From positions 1 to 53,126 of IMG/VR virus record IMGVR_UViG_3300005577_000042: a stretch of 53,126 bases of DNA. One strand, written 5' to 3'. How positions within the stretch are numbered: position 1 is the stretch's first letter; each line of letters begins with the position of its first letter. Shown here one piece after another: positions 2,518-47,562 of this stretch. The translations under genes and the position numbers were made by a program. The stretch comes from a virus. Under the pieces are notes generated by a model. That model was not told the DNA's origin and did no database searches. It worked only from the letters and a program-made list of their open reading frames with translations.

Positions 2518-3015
2518 ATGAAACCAACCCCAATTACAGTAACCAACTACATGGGAAGACCGGTAAATCCACATCCTAAATGGTTTCAGGGTCAAAACGG
2601 ATTACCTATTAGTCAAAGTGGTATTTGGGAAATGTTTGAATCAGAAATTAAGTGTCATTTCTGCCCCTCACTCGCCAACACCGAACCAGGTAAAACTATT
2701 TTAGCTTATCTGCAATGGCAATTTTGGGCACCTAATAGCCTATATCCTGAATGGGAAGATTGTGATCCAAACGAAACTTGGCGTGAGGAATGGTGCAGAG
2801 GCAACGGCTGTAAAACCCGCCAAATATGGGTACCAATAGTCGAGCAGAAAGAGGGGGAGGGGAAGCCGGATTTTATTTTAGGCGAAGAAATTACGTTTTC
2901 ACAATTTGAAGGCCATGTTATAATATACTACAATGGGCAAGAAATCTTTACAATGGATCAGACTGAAATTAACGACCTTGTCAAATACTTATCTTCCCTC
3001 ACCACCAATAACTGA
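2518..3015 (+). CDS. Hypothetical protein (165 aa), cysteine-containing
   Basis: Has CHFCPS in the middle and CRGNGC about 45 residues later. The four cysteines could form a zinc site. Tryptophan content is high (PKWFQ, GIWEMF, WQFWAP, EWEDC, TWREEWC). The C-terminal third looks like a separate small beta domain. No family is recognised. It lies in the same direction as its neighbours with 11 and 6 nt gaps. Confidence 0.6.
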   Translation: MKPTPITVTNYMGRPVNPHPKWFQGQNGLPISQSGIWEMFESEIKCHFCPSLANTEPGKTILAYLQWQFWAPNSLYPEWEDCDPNETWREEWCRGNGCKTRQIWVPIVEQKEGEGKPDFILGEEITFSQFEGHVIIYYNGQEIFTMDQTEINDLVKYLSSLTTNN

Positions 3016-3021
3016 GAAATA

Positions 3022-3276
3022 ATGGAAATAATAATCGAAGGTCACAAGGTTGACACAAAAGATATTTGGGATGTGTCGTTGGAGAAGCATAGTAGAAGTG
3101 TTAGTGTTGTAGTACGAATTACCGGTAAACCCGATGTGGTAATACGTCGGACTATTCCATACGAAACATACCCAAGTGAATTTGCAGAAATCTACGCACC
3201 TTACGAAAAACTTTATAAATCGATCAAAGAAAAGTGGGACGCCGATAAATCAAATGTCCCAGTATTTAAACTTTAA
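3022..3276 (+). CDS. Hypothetical protein (84 aa)
   Basis: Begins MEIIIEGHKVDTKDIWDV and alternates beta strands with a C-terminal helix; acidic and soluble. It starts 6 nt after the previous stop. No family is recognised. Confidence 0.6.
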   Translation: MEIIIEGHKVDTKDIWDVSLEKHSRSVSVVVRITGKPDVVIRRTIPYETYPSEFAEIYAPYEKLYKSIKEKWDADKSNVPVFKL

Positions 3277-10223: not shown

Positions 10224-10256
10224 GAATAAAAAAAGCCCCACTTCACAGCAGGGCTT
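10224..10256 (-). terminator. Intrinsic terminator upstream of the adhesin gene
   Basis: Minus-strand AAGCCC and GGGCTT close a hairpin followed by seven T. It ends the transcript carrying the gene at 10286-10699. Confidence 0.8.
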
Positions 10257-10285
10257 ATCAACGTTGCAGGGTAACTCTAATTAAC

Positions 10286-10699
10286 CTACGCGGTTAATGT
10301 GAAAAGTTCTTTAGCTTGTTTGGCCTCTGTTTCGGTGGCTTCGTGAATTTCTGAAAGAGCATTAACCACAGACATGAGGTCTGAGAACATATCATTATTA
10401 AGCCTGCCAGACTCAAAAGCCTTTTCAATTAAAGCCAATTCATATGGACTATACCCAGTAGAATCTATTTGTTTTTTAGCATTTCCTCGATATTCATTTA
10501 TATGAAATTCACTTCCGCACATAATGGTTGTAACGAAAACGCTATTCCAACTTGGATGAAAACACCTTATATCTATGCCCATGTTTGCGCATATCAAATT
10601 ACCTACGGCGCATCCACAAATTGAATGCTCTAACGTTCCATCAAAATAAGATTTTACTAAAATTCCCACAGTCTTGTGGAATAGTTCTGGATTTTTCAT
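10286..10699 (-). CDS. Hypothetical protein (137 aa)
   Basis: N-terminal half contains HSICGCAVGNLIC, a cysteine-rich helix, then mixed alpha/beta. C-terminal half is helical and acidic. It is a single-gene unit: its own promoter box lies at 10738-10745 and a terminator follows at 10224-10256. I know similar sequences only as uncharacterised Bacteroidota proteins and give no function. Confidence 0.6.
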   Translation of the reverse strand: MKNPELFHKTVGILVKSYFDGTLEHSICGCAVGNLICANMGIDIRCFHPSWNSVFVTTIMCGSEFHINEYRGNAKKQIDSTGYSPYELALIEKAFESGRLNNDMFSDLMSVVNALSEIHEATETEAKQAKELFTLTA

Positions 10700-27489: not shown

Positions 27490-27497
27490 CAAATATA
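27490..27497 (-). promoter_or_regulatory. Candidate late promoter box (TATATTTG)
   Basis: The minus strand reads GTTATATTTGG, 29 nt before the start at 27460, with ATTAC 11 nt further upstream. The same box recurs before several virion genes. It follows the HNH gene, so it would restart late transcription downstream of it. Confidence 0.5.
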
Positions 27498-27501
27498 ACA
27501 A

Positions 27502-28035
27502 TTAAGATGTAATGTATTTATTAATCAAATTGTACTGCTTTACGGCCTCTTGGTAAGCGTATCTAGCTTCTTCTTCTGTGTTATAACATCCTAGTCCAAA
27601 TGGCTTGCCGCCATTAACGAATATGGCTCTCCATTTTTTATTATCTTTTCTCCAACTTACCCCTGTGTACTTTGACGTCTTCTTTGATATATCTACAGCA
27701 TGTGTACTATTCTCTCTTGCCGACACCCACTCTAAATTATCAACTCGGTTATCGAAATTAATACCATTAATATGATTAACTATGTATTTGTTATTGGGGT
27801 TAGGAATAAATGCAATCGCTACCAATCTGTGTATAGAAAAGTCGCATAATTTATCATTTTTATGGAGTGTTACAGCCAAATATCTTCTTCTTTCCCTCGT
27901 GGCTAATAATTGAGGCTTTGTATTTTTAACTCTACCTAAATTACTTACAAAGTACTTTCCCTCGTATCCTACTACGTCTTTCCAAATTTCTCCCTCTAAA
28001 TCAATTACAGGAGGCCAGTCTTTTCTTTTTGACAT
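27502..28035 (-). CDS. HNH homing-type endonuclease, NUMOD4-HNH-AP2 (177 aa)
   Basis: NUMOD4 motif: EGEIWKDVVGYEGKYFVSNL then GRVKN. HNH core: VNHINGINFDNRVDNLEWVS, with the paired histidine and asparagine ligands. AP2-like DNA-binding domain: SKYTGVSWRKDNKKWRAIF onward. The ATG at 28035 is chosen; three more codons upstream reach only a TTG. Such proteins nick or cut DNA to spread their own gene. It is co-directional with the late operon, between the cupin gene and an internal-protein gene. Unlike the other two HNH genes it lacks the N-terminal zinc ribbon. A structured RNA (28039-28137) precedes it. Confidence 0.9.
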   Translation of the reverse strand: MSKRKDWPPVIDLEGEIWKDVVGYEGKYFVSNLGRVKNTKPQLLATRERRRYLAVTLHKNDKLCDFSIHRLVAIAFIPNPNNKYIVNHINGINFDNRVDNLEWVSARENSTHAVDISKKTSKYTGVSWRKDNKKWRAIFVNGGKPFGLGCYNTEEEARYAYQEAVKQYNLINKYITS

Positions 28036-28038
28036 AAT

Positions 28039-28137
28039 TCGCAAGTATTAAAAAAGCCCATCGACCTTTCCCCGCTTGCGATCAGGTACTCAGCCAATGG
28101 GCTTTAAATGTTTTTTATTATCAAACTTCCTCGCAAG
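28039..28137 (-). ncRNA. Pseudoknotted RNA element A, upstream of HNH gene
   Basis: Proposed from base complementarity on the minus strand. P1: CTTGCGA (28131-28137) with TCGCAAG (28075-28081). P2: AAGCCCAT (28097-28104) with ATGGGCTT (28054-28061), followed by TTTTTT. P3: CCTG (28083-28086) with CGGG (28071-28074), with the P1 3' strand in its loop. A second CTTGCGA (28039-28045), 3 nt before the start codon, could compete for the P1 partner. A TTG-N20-TATATTTA promoter-like site lies just upstream. Elements B and C have the same helix order with different sequences. As a plain alternative, P2 plus the U-tract could be the terminator of the upstream cupin gene. Confidence 0.6.
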
Positions 28138-28157
28138 ACATTTGATATGTAAATATA

Positions 28158-34434: not shown

Positions 34435-35064
34435 TTACTTTGACACGTTGTCATTAACGCCATCGGGGAGTACATTCCTCACCATATTCAACCTATTCAA
34501 TATCTTATCAACTATAGCCGATTCAACCGATTTTGGTAAGTTCAGTGGCAAATCAACCAATTCTGTGCCGACAGGAACGCTACCTACCAAAGTTAGGTTC
34601 ACCGTTGCTGAAACGAGGCTACTTACGTTATCCAAATAGATGTTACCACCCTCAATATAAGCCAACACCATCCACTTCGGAGTTTTAGTCATTTGCTGCA
34701 TAAACCTGTCCTTATTCCGCATAGGGAATATCTGCGTCTTTTTATTGCCGTTGAAGGCTATATACGCCAATTCGCGCCCTTGAGGTAGTCCGGCAGGTGT
34801 ATTTGGCATTGTGATATATTTTCTGCCTGTAGCCGACTCTGTTTGTATGGATAGCCCGTTGTAGGTGCATAAGAATTGGTCGTTGGAGTAGACGGACTCA
34901 CCGAGGCGGTCTTGCTCAAAAGCATCCACCTTAGCTTGGTAGGCGACTTCCTGTGCAACGTACTCAGCAATTTGACGCAGGGAATAGTTTGCATTATCGC
35001 TGCGATAATTTTTGTAGTACCCTGTTAATATAAGTTCTGCGAGTTTACCGTAGCTGTCCGCCAT
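34435..35064 (-). CDS. Putative tail/ring structural protein (209 aa)
   Basis: Helical N-terminus (MADSYGKLAELILTGYYKNY) is followed by beta strands with FMQQMTKTPKWMVLAYIEGG. It ends with a helical tail containing SAIVDKILNRLNMVRNVLP. No enzyme motif. It belongs to the head-tail module and is preceded by a late-type box (35082-35089). The HNH cassette B separates it from the ring protein gene upstream. Confidence 0.6.
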   Translation of the reverse strand: MADSYGKLAELILTGYYKNYRSDNANYSLRQIAEYVAQEVAYQAKVDAFEQDRLGESVYSNDQFLCTYNGLSIQTESATGRKYITMPNTPAGLPQGRELAYIAFNGNKKTQIFPMRNKDRFMQQMTKTPKWMVLAYIEGGNIYLDNVSSLVSATVNLTLVGSVPVGTELVDLPLNLPKSVESAIVDKILNRLNMVRNVLPDGVNDNVSK

Positions 35065-35068
35065 TTTA

Positions 35069-35100
35069 TTTGCATTTTTAACAAATATAACATATATTCG
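35069..35100 (+). promoter_or_regulatory. Promoter of HNH cassette B
   Basis: TTTG (35069-35072), 20-nt spacer, TATATTCG (35093-35100): good agreement with the Bacteroidota promoter consensus. Transcription would begin near 35107, shortly before RNA element B. It overlaps the oppositely directed late box at 35082-35089, so the two promoters probably exclude each other. Confidence 0.65.
35082..35089 (-). promoter_or_regulatory. Candidate late promoter box (TATATTTG)
   Basis: Minus-strand GTTATATTTG lies 17 nt before the start at 35064, with ATTAC 10 nt upstream of it. It belongs to the recurrent set also seen before 27460, 28622, 37077 and 44646. Confidence 0.5.
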
Positions 35101-35118
35101 TAATAGAATTTAAAGCTC

Positions 35119-35191
35119 ATGCCGGAGCAATCGAAAAGACATTTCAGCCCTTAGTGGGGGATTCCGCGGCATCGGATGAACTCGCTAAGGG
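35119..35191 (+). ncRNA. Pseudoknotted RNA element B, upstream of HNH gene
   Basis: P1: ATGCCG (35119-35124) with CGGCAT (35167-35172). P2: CCCTTAG (35148-35154) with CTAAGGG (35185-35191), followed by six T. P3: TCCG (35163-35166) with CGGA (35173-35176), whose 6-nt loop is exactly the P1 3' strand. The start codon follows 9 nt after P2. The element is antisense to the late operon and no plus-strand gene precedes it, so it is not simply an upstream gene's terminator. Same architecture as elements A and C with unrelated helix sequences. Confidence 0.7.
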
Positions 35192-35200
35192 TTTTTTAAT

Positions 35201-35896
35201 ATGGAAAAAGTATGTAGTAAATGTAAGTTATTATTGGATGAATCTATGTTTTCAAAAGATATAACTTCAAAAGACGGAATAAGATATACATGCAGGAGTT
35301 GCTATAGGGAAACTTATAAAAATTCAAGACAGCCTAAAATGGAAATTCTTTTAGAAGGCGAAATTTGGAAAGATGTAGTAGGGTGGGAGGCTTTTTATGA
35401 AGTTTCAAATTTTGGAAACGTACGCGGTAAAGAAAAAATAGTCAAAAATGTAAACGGGGTTAGAAAATTAGATAGATTAATCCCAAGAAGACCATTAAAG
35501 CCTCAAAGCAACCATTTAGGGTATAAAAGTGTTAATTTATACATGGATTCAAAAATGACAAAAAAGCCAATACATCGTTTAGTATCAGAAGCATTTTTGC
35601 CTAATCCTGAAAATAAACCTTGTGTGAATCATAAGGATTTTAATCCATCAAATAATCATGTCGATAATCTTGAATGGTGTACATATCAATATAATTATGA
35701 CTACTCGAAAGAAAGAATAATTAATAGCATGGCAAAGGGGGAGGATCACTTTTACGCGAAACTGACCTCCGACGAAGTAAAACAAATAAAAATGCTTAAA
35801 GGAATTATGAGAAATTGCGATATAGCAAGAAAGTTTAACGTGTCCCCTCCAGTTATATGTGATATATTAAATGGAAAGGCTTGGAAGCATATTTAA
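35201..35896 (+). CDS. HNH homing-type endonuclease with zinc ribbon, NUMOD4, HNH and HTH (231 aa)
   Basis: Residues about 5-35 have CSKC and CRSC, a zinc ribbon. NUMOD4: EGEIWKDVVGWEAFYEVSNF then GNVRG. HNH core: VNHKDFNPSNNHVDNLEWCT. C-terminal helix-turn-helix: LTSDEVKQIKMLKGIMRNCD onward, ending ILNGKAWKHI, as in NUMOD-type DNA-binding tails. It is antisense to the structural operon, and its TAA overlaps the TAA of the convergent ring-protein gene by two bases. It is AT-richer than its neighbours, which supports mobility. Its own promoter and RNA element lie directly upstream. Confidence 0.9.
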   Translation: MEKVCSKCKLLLDESMFSKDITSKDGIRYTCRSCYRETYKNSRQPKMEILLEGEIWKDVVGWEAFYEVSNFGNVRGKEKIVKNVNGVRKLDRLIPRRPLKPQSNHLGYKSVNLYMDSKMTKKPIHRLVSEAFLPNPENKPCVNHKDFNPSNNHVDNLEWCTYQYNYDYSKERIINSMAKGEDHFYAKLTSDEVKQIKMLKGIMRNCDIARKFNVSPPVICDILNGKAWKHI

Positions 35897-37077
35897 CTCG
35901 CTATGCCTCCATTCTTACTATTCGCCGTAGCATATCCTTCTAATTCTGAATCTTTCAAGAATGCGCCCATATCGGTTAAGAACATATAAATTATATTGTC
36001 TATGTCGATGTCCAACCAAACAGGGTCAACACTTGTTGCGGAATCATAAACCTGTCGTGCGTTAGTAATACTCGCAACTTTAAATGACCATCCCGTACCA
36101 ACAGGTAACGTTCCCGTCAGCGTATCGCCAACTTTATATTGAAACCCGCCATTGGTAATTGTTACAGATGTCACAGCCCCGCCCGAAACCACTACTGTGC
36201 CACTTGCGCTATTGCCTGCGCCTCCTGTAAAGTTTACATTAGGGTAAGTGCCGTTCGTATATCCACTACCGCCAACAAGCGTATTCGTAGTGCTAATTGT
36301 GCCATTCAACGTATACCCCCAATAACAGGTAGTCGGATTCATTAGATACGTCAATGTAGCCGATGTTAATGTAGTTGGATAGAATTGGAAATAATCCTCA
36401 TATTCCACGTAAATAGGAAACATTTCGGTTGGATATTCATAATAGCTGAATAGGTTGTCTGCCAAATCCTGTTTCTCAACACGTCTGACAGCCGTTGGAG
36501 TAGTTCCTACTGATAAGATGTAGTACGAAAATCCACTCCCCGTTCCGCCAATATTTGTAGCAAGGGCGCTTAGTGTATCGCCGGGTTTATATCCCGTTCC
36601 ATTTGTTGTGACCCGAACTTGCGTAGCCAAACCGCCTGCTATCGTTATTGTTGCTATCGCGCCAGTGCCGCTGCCGCCAGTTAATGGGATGCCAGTGTAT
36701 ACGCCGTTAGTGTATGCCGTTCCCGCTGTAATGCTACCATTTATTGAACCCCCATTTTCATACATTATATGACTAAGTGAGTCTACAAAGAACAAATCGG
36801 TAGGCTTTGGCGCGTGTCCATTTGCGTCGATGGTTAATATCTGCGGCGCTGAACTGAATTTAGATAGTGAAGAACTGACTTTTATTGTAGATGGATAGGC
36901 GATGCGAGGTACAGGATCGCCATAACGGTACTCATTCTGGTTGCCATAAAGTTTTTGATAATAGCGCCTTTCTGCGAACGGAAAATTTTGATTGAAATTG
37001 ACACTTGAAATCGTCCCGGTAAATCCAGACTTAGCTGAAAGCGTCAATGCCCTTTGAAAAACTTGGTCTACCGTCAT
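35893..37077 (-). CDS. Putative head-tail ring protein with two inserted glycine-rich modules (394 aa)
   Basis: N-terminal 110 residues (MTVDQVFQRALTLSAKSGFT ... RRYYQKLYGNQ) and the C-terminal 50 (WLDIDIDNIIYMFLTDMGAF) are helical and probably form the ring core. Between them are two copies of a module, about residues 116-192 and 257-335, with YTNGxY, LTGGSG or FTGGAG, a VxxVxITxxG strand pair and GDTL. The same module occurs in the tail fibre at 12657-16868. The insertions probably project from the virion surface. Start 4 nt after a TATATTTG box. Confidence 0.65.
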   Translation of the reverse strand: MTVDQVFQRALTLSAKSGFTGTISSVNFNQNFPFAERRYYQKLYGNQNEYRYGDPVPRIAYPSTIKVSSSLSKFSSAPQILTIDANGHAPKPTDLFFVDSLSHIMYENGGSINGSITAGTAYTNGVYTGIPLTGGSGTGAIATITIAGGLATQVRVTTNGTGYKPGDTLSALATNIGGTGSGFSYYILSVGTTPTAVRRVEKQDLADNLFSYYEYPTEMFPIYVEYEDYFQFYPTTLTSATLTYLMNPTTCYWGYTLNGTISTTNTLVGGSGYTNGTYPNVNFTGGAGNSASGTVVVSGGAVTSVTITNGGFQYKVGDTLTGTLPVGTGWSFKVASITNARQVYDSATSVDPVWLDIDIDNIIYMFLTDMGAFLKDSELEGYATANSKNGGIAS

Positions 37078-42174: not shown

Positions 42175-42200
42175 AAAGCCTCGCTTGCCGGGGCTTTTTT
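42175..42200 (+). terminator. Intrinsic terminator of the plus-strand gene
   Basis: AAAGCCTC (42175-42182) and GGGGCTTT (42190-42197) form an 8-bp stem (one G-U), loop 7 nt, followed by T-run. It overlaps the last codons of the convergent portal gene. Confidence 0.8.
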
Positions 42201-44646
42201 ATGCCGCTTGCCCTTGCTCCGGTTGTTGCTCTTGCGGCTGTTCCTGTTCCGCTTGCTGCGCTTCTGCCTGTTGCTGCTGAACACCTGCCGCCTGTGCCAT
42301 CGTTTGTAAATAGTTCATTGCGTTGGCGTGGTCTATAGCGTGCTCCAACGGCAAGCCCTCAAAAACAAACGAAGGCAACGTCGAAATGCTTCCTCCTGGC
42401 TTAGCCAGTTCAGCCGTAACCAAATTAGCTTTTAATATGCCCAAGAACTTGGCATTTTCCACCATTAATTGCGTCTCCCTCTCTCTCAAATCAGCCGCCT
42501 CTTTCTGCGTTGCCGTAAACTGCGCCAACTGAAGTTCGCCCTGCGTCTTAGCTTGTGCCCCTGCAACTGCTGCCTGCGTATTCTGCTGACTGAGCGCCAT
42601 CTGATTCTCCTGCATCGTCTTCTGCCGCTTATTAATCCGCTGCGACATCACATATGAAGCCCACTTAACGTTAGTTACTGCCAATTCCCGTATATCAAGC
42701 GCATCCGAAAACTCAATCTTATCATTAGCCAAGGCCGCCTGAATATTATTCTCCAAAGCAACCTGTTCTGTATCGCCAATAATAGTTTTTATCTGAATAT
42801 CAAAGGCTGTTTGCCCCCAATCCGGCGTGGCTTCCAATTTCAGATATTCGACCTTGCCCGTCCCCAACGCCTGCCTATACCCATCGTAAAATTGTACGCC
42901 CCATTTCTTGCCGTACATAAGAATATCCCATCCGCGTAGCTGAACAACTTTGCTCGTGCGTTGCAAAACGTTTAGGAATGAATTGTAGATATAGTTAGAG
43001 GTGCTTTCGCCAGTCTGCTTAGCCTCCTGTAACACCTTCTGCCCCACAGCTTGGTTGCGGATGTTGCCACTGTCAAGTTCGTTGGAAATAATGTTGGTGA
43101 TGACGAGCAACTCGTTTTGCTTCAACTGTTGCAACGCTTCCAACTTAGGGCTGAACGGCACTTGGTTAGCTTGTACTGGTACGCGCCTTTGTCCACCCTC
43201 TATCCCCTCATCCGGTATCGACTTATAGTAACGTATACCCGTTTGCTTGTATACCTCATATAAGCCCTGTGGTGACATTGTAGTATTCCCGCCATCTAAA
43301 GATATGTCAGACATCAATGCGACGTCTATATCGTACCCATCCGGTGCTGCTGCGGCAACTATCTTCAATTGCTGCAATTCATACAGCGTCATCTTCTTAA
43401 CAGAAGGTATGAGCTGTTCCATCAAAGGCTTATTGGACATTTCCGTATTGTCGTACATATATACACAATACTGCGAAATGATTTCTTCCAAGTTCTTTTC
43501 AGGCTTCACCATGTTCTTGGACAACCCCCACCGCAAAACGTGGTTGGTGTCCATGATATAAACGCCAGTATAGGATACATAATAGGGCGTCGATTCCAAT
43601 TCGCTGACGTCTGCATTGGGGTTGGTTACCTCATCCACAATAGACTCCCGGCCAAACTTATTGGTGACAACTGACTTTTTCATGTTGTACAGCGTCTTGA
43701 AATCCATCTCGACAACTGGTACGCGCCATGCATCATAAGGCCGCGCTATACTGGTATAGTAAAGTGGCGTCCATGTGAATCCCCACATTGCAGGGTTCCC
43801 GTATTGGCCTACAAGGGTATGAGAGAGGTTATATAACTCCTGCTCATCTACTTTTCCGGGATAAAGTAGGCGAATTTCCATGATGGACAGGTAGTATATC
43901 TCGCCCAAGTACTGCCAATCTCTAAAGTCGTTCCACTCGCTGTAAGAAGTGATAAGGTTTTCGGGCTTGATGCATCGTATCTTGATTCGCCCAGTTCCGT
44001 CAACATAGGTCTTTGTCCCGGCTATTCCGCAATTAATCAAATCATCTAACAGTCTATCCTTCACCACATCAGTAAAGCCATTCTCATAGAAAACGATGTT
44101 GATTAGGTTTTCCATGATGACTTCTTCGCGCTCTTTGTAGCTGAAGCCAAACTCCATATTGATGTCGGCTTCGGTTTCAGGATCGTTATCACTAAACTCT
44201 TCGGTCTGAACGCCCGATTGTTGCTGAACGGCTTGTATATCGTCCTTGTGTTTTAACTTGAATAATGCTGTTTGCTTGGCCGTGTCTCGTTTGCCCAAGG
44301 TGAAGAGATCGACCGCATAGCACTGAATAAGTTCGTCGCGCTGGTTGTAACGATCTTTTAGTCTATTAAGATAAGGCTTAAGTATGTTCAAACTATCGTA
44401 GGGAAGATTTAATACCGAAAACTCGCCGTCAAGGTCAAGGATGTCTTTAAATTCATCCATATTATACTTACCCAACGCATAGGAACGGTTGTAGTCAAAG
44501 CGTTGTTTGCGTTGGAGTCTGGATGTACCTAAATAGCCTGTTTGCCACTGCGCGGCAGCCGCTTTCATCATTTTTAACCCATAAGCCTCAGTATCTTTTT
44601 CAGAATCAGAATTTAACGGATTGATAGCGGCTGATACTTCATTCAT
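42199..44646 (-). CDS. Portal protein (815 aa)
   Basis: Large helical protein directly downstream of the terminase. The middle has SYSEWNDFRDWQYLGEIYYL and LSIMEIRLLYPG, a pattern I associate with portals of Bacteroidota podoviruses including crAss-like phages. The C-terminal 130 residues form Gln/Ala-rich helices (QAAVAGAQAKTQGELQLAQF) ending in poly-Gln/Glu, typical of the portal barrel. The portal forms the dodecameric DNA gate at one capsid vertex. The length is near the upper range of the family. Confidence 0.8.
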   Translation of the reverse strand: MNEVSAAINPLNSDSEKDTEAYGLKMMKAAAAQWQTGYLGTSRLQRKQRFDYNRSYALGKYNMDEFKDILDLDGEFSVLNLPYDSLNILKPYLNRLKDRYNQRDELIQCYAVDLFTLGKRDTAKQTALFKLKHKDDIQAVQQQSGVQTEEFSDNDPETEADINMEFGFSYKEREEVIMENLINIVFYENGFTDVVKDRLLDDLINCGIAGTKTYVDGTGRIKIRCIKPENLITSYSEWNDFRDWQYLGEIYYLSIMEIRLLYPGKVDEQELYNLSHTLVGQYGNPAMWGFTWTPLYYTSIARPYDAWRVPVVEMDFKTLYNMKKSVVTNKFGRESIVDEVTNPNADVSELESTPYYVSYTGVYIMDTNHVLRWGLSKNMVKPEKNLEEIISQYCVYMYDNTEMSNKPLMEQLIPSVKKMTLYELQQLKIVAAAAPDGYDIDVALMSDISLDGGNTTMSPQGLYEVYKQTGIRYYKSIPDEGIEGGQRRVPVQANQVPFSPKLEALQQLKQNELLVITNIISNELDSGNIRNQAVGQKVLQEAKQTGESTSNYIYNSFLNVLQRTSKVVQLRGWDILMYGKKWGVQFYDGYRQALGTGKVEYLKLEATPDWGQTAFDIQIKTIIGDTEQVALENNIQAALANDKIEFSDALDIRELAVTNVKWASYVMSQRINKRQKTMQENQMALSQQNTQAAVAGAQAKTQGELQLAQFTATQKEAADLRERETQLMVENAKFLGILKANLVTAELAKPGGSISTLPSFVFEGLPLEHAIDHANAMNYLQTMAQAAGVQQQQAEAQQAEQEQPQEQQPEQGQAA

Positions 44647-44663
44647 TATTTGTCAATTTAATC

Positions 44664-44671
44664 CAAATATA
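44664..44671 (-). promoter_or_regulatory. Candidate late promoter box (TATATTTG)
   Basis: Minus-strand ATTATATTTGG lies 17 nt before the portal start at 44646. GTAAC occurs 11 nt upstream in the place where related sites have ATTAC. Confidence 0.45.
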
Positions 44672-44720
44672 ATGTTTTGTACGTTACGAATTTTTTACTA
44701 CCTTAGTATTGCAAATCGTG

Positions 44721-44793
44721 GTTCAGCATGATTAAAGAAATTAAACAGTCCTGTTTGGGATTGAAGGCTGAACACTTCAATTCTGACGGGACT
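44721..44793 (+). ncRNA. Pseudoknotted RNA element C, upstream of HNH gene
   Basis: P1: GTTCAGC (44721-44727) with GCTGAAC (44767-44773). P2: AGTCCTGT (44747-44754) with ACGGGACT (44786-44793), 8 bp with one G-U, followed by TCTTTTTT. P3: ATTGAAG (44760-44766) with CTTCAAT (44775-44781), a perfect 7-bp hairpin whose 8-nt loop holds the P1 3' strand. The ATG follows 10 nt after P2. It lies antisense to the late operon with no gene before it on this strand. Confidence 0.75.
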
Positions 44794-44803
44794 TCTTTTT
44801 TAT

Positions 44804-45481
44804 ATGAAAATTTGTACGAAATGTAAGGTAGAAAAGGAATTAAGTGAGTTTAATGTTAGCTTAGATAGAAAAGATGGGTATTATAATAGATGTAGGTTAT
44901 GCGTAAACATTACTAATTATGAACGAAAAAATAAAGTTTACGCAGGAGTAATTACTGAACCGCTTGTATCTTTTGAAGGAGAGGAATGGAAGACGGTAGA
45001 AAATTATCCTGATTACATGATAAGCAATTTTGGCAGAGTTTACAGCTATAGAAAATCTAGGGGGTATAATGGCAAGTTTTTAAAACAAAATAATTGTGGC
45101 GGATATTTAAATGTTGGGCTTTATGGAGATAACAATAAAATGAATACCGTATTAGTTCATTTATTAGTTGCCAATAGTTTTGTGCCTAAAATAGAAGGCA
45201 AGGAATTAGTTAATCACATTGATGGGGATAAATCTAACGCGCATTATTTGAATTTAGAGTGGGTGGATAATAGGGAGAATTTATCCCATGCATTCTTGAC
45301 AAAAAATGTAGCCTCAAAATACACGGGGGTTCATTTAAGAAAAGATTTAAATAAATGGATAGCTGCAATTAGAATAAATAAAAAACTTAAACATTTAGGG
45401 GTATTCTTAAATGAAGAAGATGCCGCCCAAGCCTACAAGGATGCTCTTATAGAGTATGGGTTAACTAACAAATATGCCTAA
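44804..45481 (+). CDS. HNH homing-type endonuclease with zinc ribbon, NUMOD4, HNH and AP2 (225 aa)
   Basis: Zinc ribbon at residues 4-33 (CTKC ... CRLC). NUMOD4: EGEEWKTVENYPDYMISNFG. HNH core: VNHIDGDKSNAHYLNLEWVD. AP2-type DNA-binding domain: SKYTGVHLRKDLNKWIAAIR onward. It is AT-rich and antisense to the packaging operon, between terminase and portal. Its stop overlaps the terminase stop by two bases. It shares the AP2 end with the HNH at 27502-28035 and the zinc ribbon with the HNH at 35201-35896, so the three look like domain-shuffled relatives. Confidence 0.9.
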   Translation: MKICTKCKVEKELSEFNVSLDRKDGYYNRCRLCVNITNYERKNKVYAGVITEPLVSFEGEEWKTVENYPDYMISNFGRVYSYRKSRGYNGKFLKQNNCGGYLNVGLYGDNNKMNTVLVHLLVANSFVPKIEGKELVNHIDGDKSNAHYLNLEWVDNRENLSHAFLTKNVASKYTGVHLRKDLNKWIAAIRINKKLKHLGVFLNEEDAAQAYKDALIEYGLTNKYA

Positions 45482-47562
45482 AACGGTATTTTATCACTAA
45501 TTGGATCATGATATTTCGATAAATCAATATACCCTCCATTAGCATCCTGCCTTTTCTGGCTATTCTTAAACTTCAGGAACTGCGGCGTACGCGTATCTTT
45601 CTTAGGCTGTTCACCTGTCTCCCATCCGCCTAACAGCGCCATAGAGAAAGCAATTACCTCATCTGACTTGGTACGGTCGTTCACATCGAAGTCGATTAAT
45701 TGGTCAATCAGTTCAATAAAATATATTTTGTGCCAACGGGCGTACAGGTACGATACCAACACCTGAAATTGCTTCTGAAAAGCGTATGGGTCTTTAGATA
45801 GCGTCCCCGGTCGCGGTGTATGGTTTCGCTTAGTCGGGTCAATAGCTACCTTTGGCGTCCACATGACATAGTTCCTGAATAGTTCGCGAACAAATGTTTC
45901 GTAATAGTCCGGTACGTCAGATTCGTAGTTTACCTTGCACCCGAAGTACTGTAGGATAATCATAACGTTTTTATGGAAATCCTCTACGCGCCTTGTGCGC
46001 TGTGCATAGCGTAGGATTGGAAGTCCACTATTTTCGTAGTCATCCGCATTGCCTTTACGGAAGATGTACAGCACACCCATTGATCCCGGCCCTGAAACAA
46101 TCGTTGCAGCAAACGGGTCACACCCTCCTACAAACTCCTCGCAGTTGAGCGGTCGCCACTGGTTAAGCTCTCCCGGCTTACGAGCATTGGACATAGTTGA
46201 CTTAGGAAAATCCCAAATGAATGAAGCGTGTCCTTGCGGATCGTCGCGCCACTTGGCTAACCCATCTATGTCGCGGTAGAAGGTGACGGTTCTTCTCAAA
46301 TTCTTAGGTGCTTTCTCACCTGTCAGGCTTGTTCCATCCAAATATTCTTTCTGTTGCTCTAAGTAGTCGTATATCTCTTGGTCGAATGTGCCGGAGTTTT
46401 CAGATACTTGGAAGGCGTGTTTGAGGGTTAATGGGTTTTTACGTTGTGCTGCTTTTAGCTTTTCATCTTTCAGGTTAGCCCACGTAGATAGAATGTACTC
46501 TCGCGCCAATTCCCTGTTTGATATACCATATTCATCAACGAAGGGCTGTTTTGTTATTGGATGATGTCCTGAAAAGCCGAAGTCCGCCGGGATGAACAGG
46601 TTTGTTAACATGGAGTTTGTACGATTTGTCTCAGGATTAAGGGTTGAAATCATACTATCGTCCCACGTTTTCTTTGCATTCTTGCCACCTCTGCGCTCCA
46701 TTTCCTCTACGGTGGTAGTGCGTATAGCTTTTCCTACAATATTAGCACCTATGACTAAACAGAACTGTACTACGCCCCATCTTGTATCGGTATTAACATT
46801 GACAGCCTTCCCAAACTCGTCTTCAAAGTAAGTATGTAATTCATCGCCATCATACCCGTCTTCTTCAGATGCCCTAAAGTCAATAGAGCTATCTAATACC
46901 TCACCGTATACTTTCTTTTCCTTGTTTGTGCTACGTGTTCGCGGCTCACTAAACTCTAACACAGTAGCAGGACGTGTTTCTCCGCTATCAATAGGTTTTA
47001 ACCAATTGGGCAATTTCTGCCACGACTTAATAAGTTTACTGAACACCAACTTGCCATCGGCATTCGTCTTGGATTGTATACCGCAACGATGGAAAGGATT
47101 GGTCATGGTTCTAAAATAAGCCAAGCCAGTAGACCATACTGTTTTACCAAAGCGTCGGTTGGTGATGAGATTACCGCCAGCCATATTATCCATCTGCTCT
47201 ATCTGCCAAAACCAGAGCGAGGCATAAAGTTGGCTATCAACAAACCTCATCCGCTTGCCTTTATCAGTCCAGTAGTTCAGGAAGAAATAGTAGAAAGGCG
47301 TGAACCAATATAGTTCGCCATTGATGAATAGCCAATAGCCGTATTTGAACCGGAGTGCTTCGGTAACTAAAAACTCTTGGGATGGATCGCGATTTCGGTC
47401 AGGTTGTACCGTATAAGTAAAAAATTGCTCCTTAGCAGGTAAATTCCAATTAGCAATAGTCTTGTAATCTTTTGGTGGCTCAGGTTGAATTACTGTTATT
47501 TCGCCTATCAGTCGCTCGCGATCGAACCTACCAATGGCATCTTTAATCTCCTGAACCGTCAT
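45478..47562 (-). CDS. terL: Terminase large subunit (694 aa)
   Basis: Two-domain packaging motor. Walker A-like: NRRFGKTVWS near residue 135. Walker B with catalytic Glu: LHTYFEDEFGK near 245. RNase H-type nuclease acids: VGGCDPFAAT near 475, NYESDVPDYYE near 540 and NDRTKSDEVIAFSMA near 645. The enzyme uses ATP to pump DNA through the portal and cuts concatemers. Its ATG overlaps the stop of the preceding gene (ATGA), as is usual for a terS-terL pair. It lies upstream of the portal, with the HNH cassette C inserted between them. Confidence 0.92.
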   Translation of the reverse strand: MTVQEIKDAIGRFDRERLIGEITVIQPEPPKDYKTIANWNLPAKEQFFTYTVQPDRNRDPSQEFLVTEALRFKYGYWLFINGELYWFTPFYYFFLNYWTDKGKRMRFVDSQLYASLWFWQIEQMDNMAGGNLITNRRFGKTVWSTGLAYFRTMTNPFHRCGIQSKTNADGKLVFSKLIKSWQKLPNWLKPIDSGETRPATVLEFSEPRTRSTNKEKKVYGEVLDSSIDFRASEEDGYDGDELHTYFEDEFGKAVNVNTDTRWGVVQFCLVIGANIVGKAIRTTTVEEMERRGGKNAKKTWDDSMISTLNPETNRTNSMLTNLFIPADFGFSGHHPITKQPFVDEYGISNRELAREYILSTWANLKDEKLKAAQRKNPLTLKHAFQVSENSGTFDQEIYDYLEQQKEYLDGTSLTGEKAPKNLRRTVTFYRDIDGLAKWRDDPQGHASFIWDFPKSTMSNARKPGELNQWRPLNCEEFVGGCDPFAATIVSGPGSMGVLYIFRKGNADDYENSGLPILRYAQRTRRVEDFHKNVMIILQYFGCKVNYESDVPDYYETFVRELFRNYVMWTPKVAIDPTKRNHTPRPGTLSKDPYAFQKQFQVLVSYLYARWHKIYFIELIDQLIDFDVNDRTKSDEVIAFSMALLGGWETGEQPKKDTRTPQFLKFKNSQKRQDANGGYIDLSKYHDPISDKIPF

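Follow-up and report, generated by a model that had tools for sequence, protein, structure and literature searches.

All three NUMOD4/HNH_3 endonuclease genes found by Pfam in the DNA analyzed here (IMGVR_UViG_3300005577_000042, positions 1 to 53,126; 53,126 nt, "the window") are preceded by a leader in which the loop of a 5′-terminal hairpin, H1, is complementary to the apical loop of a second hairpin, P2-P3, which is followed by a U-tract and then the start codon. Judging from its sequence features, we think it somewhat probable that this leader, at the 5′ end of mRNAs of early genes, acts as a transcription attenuator. The original prediction had described one upstream design shared by the three genes, with elements at 28039-28137 (minus), 35119-35191 (plus), and 44721-44793 (plus), here called E2, E1, and E3; the coordinates, strands, and pairings all proved accurate, and the design was indeed common to 3/3 genes. 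Its account of helix P1 as a free 5′ strand paired with the P3 loop was right about the pairing but not about the strand. On folding, the 5′ kiss strand of each element is the loop of its own 5′-terminal hairpin (GCTC-ATGCCG-GAGC in E1, TCGTG-GTTCAG-CATGA in E3, and ATCAAA..TTTGAT around CTTGCGA in E2), so P1 is a loop-loop (kissing) interaction. The predicted units are present, but they truly begin farther upstream, at a promoter directly before H1. Window coordinates of the features are as follows.

35053..35901, plus: E1 cassette (an inserted unit of promoter, leader, and HNH gene); 8 bp in a relative versus 849 bp here
35069..35072, plus: E1 −33 element TTTG, from sequence; 20 nt upstream of the −7 box
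35093..35100, plus: E1 −7 box TATATTCG, TAnnTTTG with one mismatch; the match to covariance model R2 begins here
35115..35128, plus: E1 H1 hairpin GCTC-[ATGCCG]-GAGC, from sequence and fold; its loop, 35119-35124, supplies the 5′ kiss strand
35146..35191, plus: E1 P2/P3 hairpin AGCCCTTAG.../CTAAGGG, from fold; P3 TCCG/CGGA; terminator score d = 26.8
35167-35172, plus: E1 kissing loop CGGCAT, within the P2/P3 hairpin, which has a GAU/UGA internal loop
35192..35197, plus: E1 U-tract, from sequence; start codon 3 nt downstream
35201..35896, plus: E1 gene, NUMOD4-HNH_3 endonuclease (Pfam), 231 aa, with an N-terminal Cys-rich zinc-ribbon-like stretch
27495..28157, minus: E2 cassette (approximate limits; −7 box, leader, and HNH gene); HNH gene missing in a relative
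28150..28157, minus: E2 −7 box TATATTTA, from sequence; TTG at 28180-28178, spacer 20
28120..28146, minus: E2 H1 hairpin ATCAAA/TTTGAT, from sequence and fold; encloses kiss strand CTTGCGA (28137-28131)
28054..28104, minus: E2 P2/P3 hairpin AAGCCCAT/ATGGGCTT, from fold; bulged-G type AGUA/GAA internal loop; terminator score d = 25.0
28081-28075, minus: E2 kissing loop TCGCAAG, in the P2/P3 hairpin
28050..28055, minus: E2 U-tract, from sequence
28039..28045, minus: second exact copy of the E2 kiss strand, CTTGCGA, 3 nt upstream of the start codon
27502..28035, minus: E2 gene, NUMOD4-HNH_3-AP2 endonuclease (Pfam)
44647..45477, plus: E3 cassette, between portal and terminase genes (both minus); 21 bp in a relative versus 831 bp here
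44676..44679, plus: E3 −33 element TTTG, from sequence; spacer 19
44699..44706, plus: E3 −7 box TACCTTAG, from sequence; TAnnTTTG with one mismatch
44714..44733, plus: E3 H1 hairpin AATCGTG/CATGATT, from fold; encloses kiss strand GTTCAGC (44721-44727)
44747..44793, plus: E3 P2/P3 hairpin AGTCCTGT/ACGGGACT, from fold; P3 ATTGAAG/CTTCAAT; terminator score d = 27.7
44767-44773, plus: E3 kissing loop GCTGAAC, in the P2/P3 hairpin
44794..44801, plus: E3 U-tract, from sequence
44804..45481, plus: E3 gene, NUMOD4-HNH_3 endonuclease with a weak AP2 match (Pfam)

The promoter upstream of H1 is of the Bacteroidota type in 3/3 window elements, with a −33 TTTG or TTG, a spacer of 19-20 nt, and a TAnnTTTG-like −7 box carrying one mismatch in each case; the −33 elements were identified by eye, in these three elements only. 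E3 is oriented opposite to its neighbors, a portal gene (phrog_6547; 42199-44646, minus) and a terminase large subunit gene (phrog_6681; 45478-47562, minus). When every ORF start in the window was scanned for H1, kiss, P3, and P2, the HNH starts scored 61, 62, and 67, and the runner-up scored 43. Chance origin of the window elements is excluded, because models of independent homologues, R1 and R2, recover them. A hairpin at window positions 10233-10305 (minus; AAGCCC/GGGGCTT, loop TGTGAA, TTCACA upstream), preceding a gene for a 610-aa beta-helix/Ig-like protein, came from our first, loose scanner; it is unconvincing as a further element and is probably a plain intergenic terminator.

That first scanner gave many chance matches. 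When loci fetched by HNH proteins were scanned, unrelated viral contigs turned out to share the arrangement, directly after a TAnnTTTG box and directly before an ORF, and one group of homologues preceded HTH_36/DnaD-like replication genes instead of HNH genes. MAFFT alignment of diverse leaders misplaced the stems; we therefore bootstrapped a covariance model from one homogeneous group, seven replication-gene leaders only (R1), and later widened it (R2), with no kiss pairs in either model and with E1 outside the R2 training set. R1 recovered HNH leaders, and its only two matches in the window were two of the window's elements; R2 found further held-out leaders and, weakly, E1 (25.6 bits; E value, 0.8). 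The covariance-model search proposed with the original prediction, as run here, recovered homologues, held-out window elements among them. A start-anchored scanner returned 125 matches at a score of at least 55 in 2.6 Mb, compared with 6 in dinucleotide shuffles. Scanners and models together yielded 32 nonredundant elements (<80% identity) from metagenomic viral contigs and named Flavobacterium and Polaribacter phages, and R2 extended the carriers to Croceibacter and Cellulophaga phages. R2 matches in crAss001, in Cellulophaga phage phi14:2, and at L400:1339 and L330:3616 were rejected as chance. The comparison with Rfam that had also been suggested gave no family match: Rfam 15 had none in the window at the gathering score, and a permissive search gave sub-cutoff, chance-level matches for two leaders (L264 and L096) and none for E1. 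Four of 396 Bacteroidota genomes gave borderline E values (0.1-0.5), none convincing on scanning; because this screen scored few candidates per genome, absence from these genomes is weak evidence. Relatives of the E1 protein mostly look like proteins of other-host phages and have no evident element. At two loci (L004 and L005, near 2950-3050), a GC-rich hairpin and T-tract immediately precede a Shine-Dalgarno-like site of a NUMOD4-HNH gene, with no evident kiss. Bacteroidota are not known to use Shine-Dalgarno sites.

Unrelated helix sequences with preserved pairing had been read as covariation from the window alone, and the homologues bear this out. Neither R1 nor R2 contains the kiss, so its count among R2 matches is free of ascertainment. 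In 34/38 R2 matches, the H1 region and the apical loop are strictly complementary over at least 6 nt; permuting the partners lowers this share to 8.7%, and shuffling the 5′ regions lowers it to 7.9%. Of the four exceptions, one is a false positive, and the other three have in common a 6-bp kiss that includes one G-U. Across the 32 nonredundant elements, the kiss averages 7.2 nt (1.5 when permuted), and all four Watson-Crick pairs are used at its central positions. Close leaders, 83-91% identical outside the kiss, differ on both sides at once at 3/7 kiss pairs; several kiss types occur within one gene family, and one kiss type occurs before different genes. Where helix extension allowed both mismatches equally, we counted 24 G-U versus 3 A-C, the bias expected if this strand pairs as RNA rather than forming a DNA cruciform. 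In 4/32 leaders, including E2, a further kiss-strand copy lies shortly upstream of the start codon (0.24 expected; maximum of 2 in 2000 permutations), and the P3 loop could pair with it in place of H1. Within-genome avoidance among kiss sequences was not significant, with about 20 pairs and <1 match expected. In a Bacilli MAG (L322:4872-4915, minus), a hairpin loop before a U-tract and a stretch upstream of it show 9-nt complementarity (TTTCCCCCA/TGGGGGAAA), a possible analogue outside Bacteroidota. In a viral contig (L249:2860-3000), a terminator hairpin that precedes a distant HTH_36 gene has a loop, TGTCAACCC, with 9 nt of complementarity to GGGTTGACA, which lies just upstream; this is possibly the same principle with another promoter type.

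Since the element precedes NUMOD4-HNH, T5orf172, replication initiator, and helicase genes, it is not HNH specific; the prediction that it leads NUMOD/HNH cassettes stands, but without that restriction. Protein families confirmed replication initiator, DnaD-like loader, helicase, and T5orf172 genes downstream, and small ORFs heading replication operons are also preceded by it. Flavobacterium phage mumin9-1 carries the element before an HNH gene and at the head of a helicase-primase operon, hattifnatt9-1 before a helicase gene, an HNH gene, and a small ORF preceding the primase gene, FCV-1.01 before an HNH gene and a small ORF, and FCL-2 before a replication initiator gene. It also precedes a small ORF in Flavobacterium phage 11b, a replication protein gene in Polaribacter phages P12002L/S, and a small ORF preceding an HTH gene in Croceibacter phage P2559S, and Cellulophaga phage phi19:1 is among the named carriers. 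The same leader can stand before different genes (T5orf172 in L265 versus HNH in L268; HTH in L260 versus T5orf172 in L267).

Promoter, leader, and HNH gene travel together, as indicated by a relative, 86-90% identical to the window phage, that is without all three cassettes. It has 8 bp in place of 849 bp at E1 and 21 bp in place of 831 bp at E3; its E2 site is also empty, with blurred limits, the right-hand one through divergence at the end of the upstream gene. This relative has leaders before its own helicase gene and another early gene. In contigs chosen for having elements, a leader is present at 20/36 HNH genes (one added by eye), and most leaderless HNH genes sit close behind an upstream gene on the same strand. 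The 483 bp at the E3 site of another relative (L409:5686-6168) include a TACATTTG box and an AAGCCC...GGGCTTTT hairpin along with other sequence, and may represent a cassette in decay. In two relatives (L410:4001-7081 and L412:234-3305), about 1 kb breaks up the terminase gene, likely as an intron or an HNH insertion.

The Bacteroidota sigma-ABfr promoter consensus consists of TTTG/TTG, about 19-20 nt, and TAnnTTTG (PMC6847099, PMC9723704), and the −7 box corresponds to positions −12 to −5 in Flavobacterium (PMC9723704). The window elements match this promoter, each −7 box differing by one base; in the leader set, the −7 box is an exact TAnnTTTG in 28/32, having been a selection criterion for most. 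With the box at −12 to −5, a G falls within the first three predicted transcript nucleotides in 22/28 leaders. The predicted start frequently opens the H1 stem (e.g., GUAG-A-N7-CUAC), and in E1 and E3 it lies several nucleotides upstream of H1. The −7 box is mostly 1-5 nt from H1 (maximum, 15), the linker between H1 and P2-P3 is A/U rich and 11-22 nt long, and P2 is 4-26 nt from the ATG in the curated set. Longer linkers go with shorter hairpins (rho = −0.64), but the placing of the P2 boundaries affects both lengths, and we draw no conclusion about geometry. The P2-P3 hairpin has a noncanonical internal loop, which is AGUA/GAA, as in bulged-G (loop E) motifs, in 9/32 elements, including E2, and of a G-A type (e.g., UGAU/UGAU) in 8/32, including E1. 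As in an attenuator, a GC-rich stem followed directly by a U-tract lies between promoter and start codon. T makes up 74% of the 12 nt that follow P2; control leaders from these phages (n = 352) have 31% T and 49% A. By our own implementation of the d'Aubenton-Carafa formula, d was >0 in 26/32 elements versus 0.6% of shuffles, with the window's three at 25-28; 6/32 elements fail this score, and some U-tracts are interrupted.

A cis-regulatory switch closing transcription was one option raised originally, and an attenuator now appears the most likely reading: the element lies between promoter and start codon, has terminator features (26/32), and is rich in U where leaders of these phages are usually A rich. 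We propose that Bacteroidota phages use the element as a module of promoter and leader. Host-type RNA polymerase would start at or near H1, giving an mRNA that opens with, or within several nucleotides of, a short hairpin; the A/U-rich linker of 11-22 nt would be followed by the P2-P3 hairpin, the P3 loop would kiss the H1 loop over 6-9 bp, and P2 with the U-tract would form an intrinsic terminator ending shortly upstream of the start codon. By default, the kissing complex and P2 would cut most transcripts short, leaving leader RNAs of roughly 80-110 nt. Read-through, which might be set by a factor reading the noncanonical P2-P3 internal loop or by exchange of kissing partners, would then be required to express the endonuclease or replication gene; termination, its regulation, and the regulator are the parts of this model that we infer. 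Inserting HNH genes would bring their own copy and thus sparing expression in any orientation. Several points count against an attenuator: some elements fail the terminator score or have interrupted U-tracts, the kiss is compatible with P2, so either state could be ON, no conserved antiterminator pairing was apparent on unsystematic inspection, and default termination in early-gene leaders of lytic phages would be unusual.

The structure might instead protect the 5′ end and/or tune translation without terminating transcription, a possibility that we place on the unlikely side. An mRNA beginning paired in H1 would block 5′-end-dependent decay, and in many elements the predicted +1 is at or near the start of H1. 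A hairpin beside the start codon would set ribosome access, and in E2-type leaders the P3 loop would pair with the start-codon copy of the kiss strand and shut translation; the excess of such copies (4/32 leaders versus 0.24 expected) favors this, as does the control of T4-type homing endonucleases by leader hairpins (PMC2988022). In those systems (I-TevI, segB, and mobE; seg43(25)), RNA structure likewise lies beside a phage endonuclease start codon, and single hairpins sequester the Shine-Dalgarno site in read-through transcripts (PMC2988022). The leader described here differs in coming from the gene's own promoter, in its kissing loop and U-tract, in its free start region, and in preceding replication genes too. 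Its stem ends before the U-tract and start codon and does not enclose a ribosome-binding site; seg43(25), with a stable hairpin just upstream of the start, is closest to it in shape. Control at the 5′ end or of translation would leave unexplained the U-tract that replaces these phages' usual A-rich leader; moreover, a start-codon copy of the kiss strand is absent from most elements, and the start codon and immediately preceding bases are outside the hairpin. The early-operon leader/CI RNA of satellite phage P4 is a replication-operon leader with termination and short complementary loop sequences, present as seqA-seqB-seqC copies. Similar RNA-based immunity or copy control here, in which the P3 loop of terminated leaders would hit the H1 loop of new transcripts in trans and shut down early operons of co- or superinfecting relatives with the same kiss sequence, seems to us unlikely. 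Short complementary loop sequences do occur in an early leader, at the gene position that P4 also uses; near-identical leaders change both sides of 3/7 kiss pairs, one gene family can have several kiss types and one kiss type several downstream genes, and some leaders have a third kiss copy upstream of the start codon. However, cis pairing is expected to beat trans pairing, chance would by itself give distinct kisses within a genome (cross-complementarity, only 3.5%), several carriers are probably lytic, and HNH genes have no need of immunity. P4 also differs in its processed trans-acting CI RNA, larger leader, and hosts, and trans action here is hypothetical. Just as doubtful is an RNA-only control system, widespread in Bacteroidota phages, in which leaders with exchangeable kisses would gate early replication genes, terminated leaders would silence in trans any relatives with a matching kiss (RNA-based superinfection control), and homing endonucleases would have captured the module.

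Three further readings have little in their favor. A separate small RNA partnering the HNH protein, guide or omega-RNA-like, is very unlikely; its own promoter, terminator-like end, and position directly upstream of a nuclease gene would suit it, but the same leader type precedes replication and helicase genes, and the start codon is ≤26 nt from P2 in the curated set. HEARO, the IscB omega-RNA, is likewise a structured RNA upstream of an HNH gene; here, however, there is no Rfam HEARO match, the leader is also found on unrelated genes, and the small NUMOD4-HNH proteins lack the RuvC-HNH architecture of IscB, those of the window having only NUMOD4, HNH_3, and AP2 domains by Pfam. Binding by the HNH protein, another option in the original prediction, is unlikely because unrelated genes carry the same leader. 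We regard a DNA-level hairpin serving homing or transposition as extremely improbable: it would account for movement together with the HNH cassette but not for the strand-specific G-U excess (24:3), the fixed order of promoter and start codon, or the presence of the leader before replication genes. A self-cleaving ribozyme of HDV-like topology, to which the interleaving of P1 and P2 had been compared, is scarcely credible. The helices do interleave, but P1 is a loop-loop contact, there is little sequence conservation beyond the internal-loop motifs, and no Rfam ribozyme matched. Instead of a nested double pseudoknot with the P1 3′ strand between P3 and P4, the topology is a kiss between two hairpins, in which the apical loop of P3 pairs with the loop of H1, and there is no sign of a catalytic core.

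An attenuator, the reading we prefer, has partial counterparts. Among attenuators with kissing loops or pseudoknots, those of the guanidine-IV riboswitch type have kissing loops beside an intrinsic terminator just upstream of an ORF; in these, the kiss joins two aptamer hairpins and competes with a terminator that is separate from them, whereas here the terminator's own apical loop kisses and the loop sequence is free to vary. The seven-nucleotide complementary hairpin loops of ColE1 RNA I and RNA II form a kiss that joins two RNAs, whereas the kiss here is inside one leader. We found no earlier description of the element in Rfam or the open papers searched, in line with the original prediction, which knew of no description of this pairing with NUMOD/HNH genes. 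A phage leader RNA or attenuator is of a known kind; a 5′-terminal hairpin kissing a terminator loop, common to replication and homing genes across a phylum's phages, appears to be new.

In phage genomes, early operons as well as mobile nuclease cassettes can be flagged with the R2 model and the scanner. If the attenuator model is true, a very large and poorly understood phage group, including phages of cultured hosts, would share a control element for early genes, and homing endonucleases would be linked to the expression signals of replication genes. The element would then bear on RNA control of early phage transcription in Bacteroidota.
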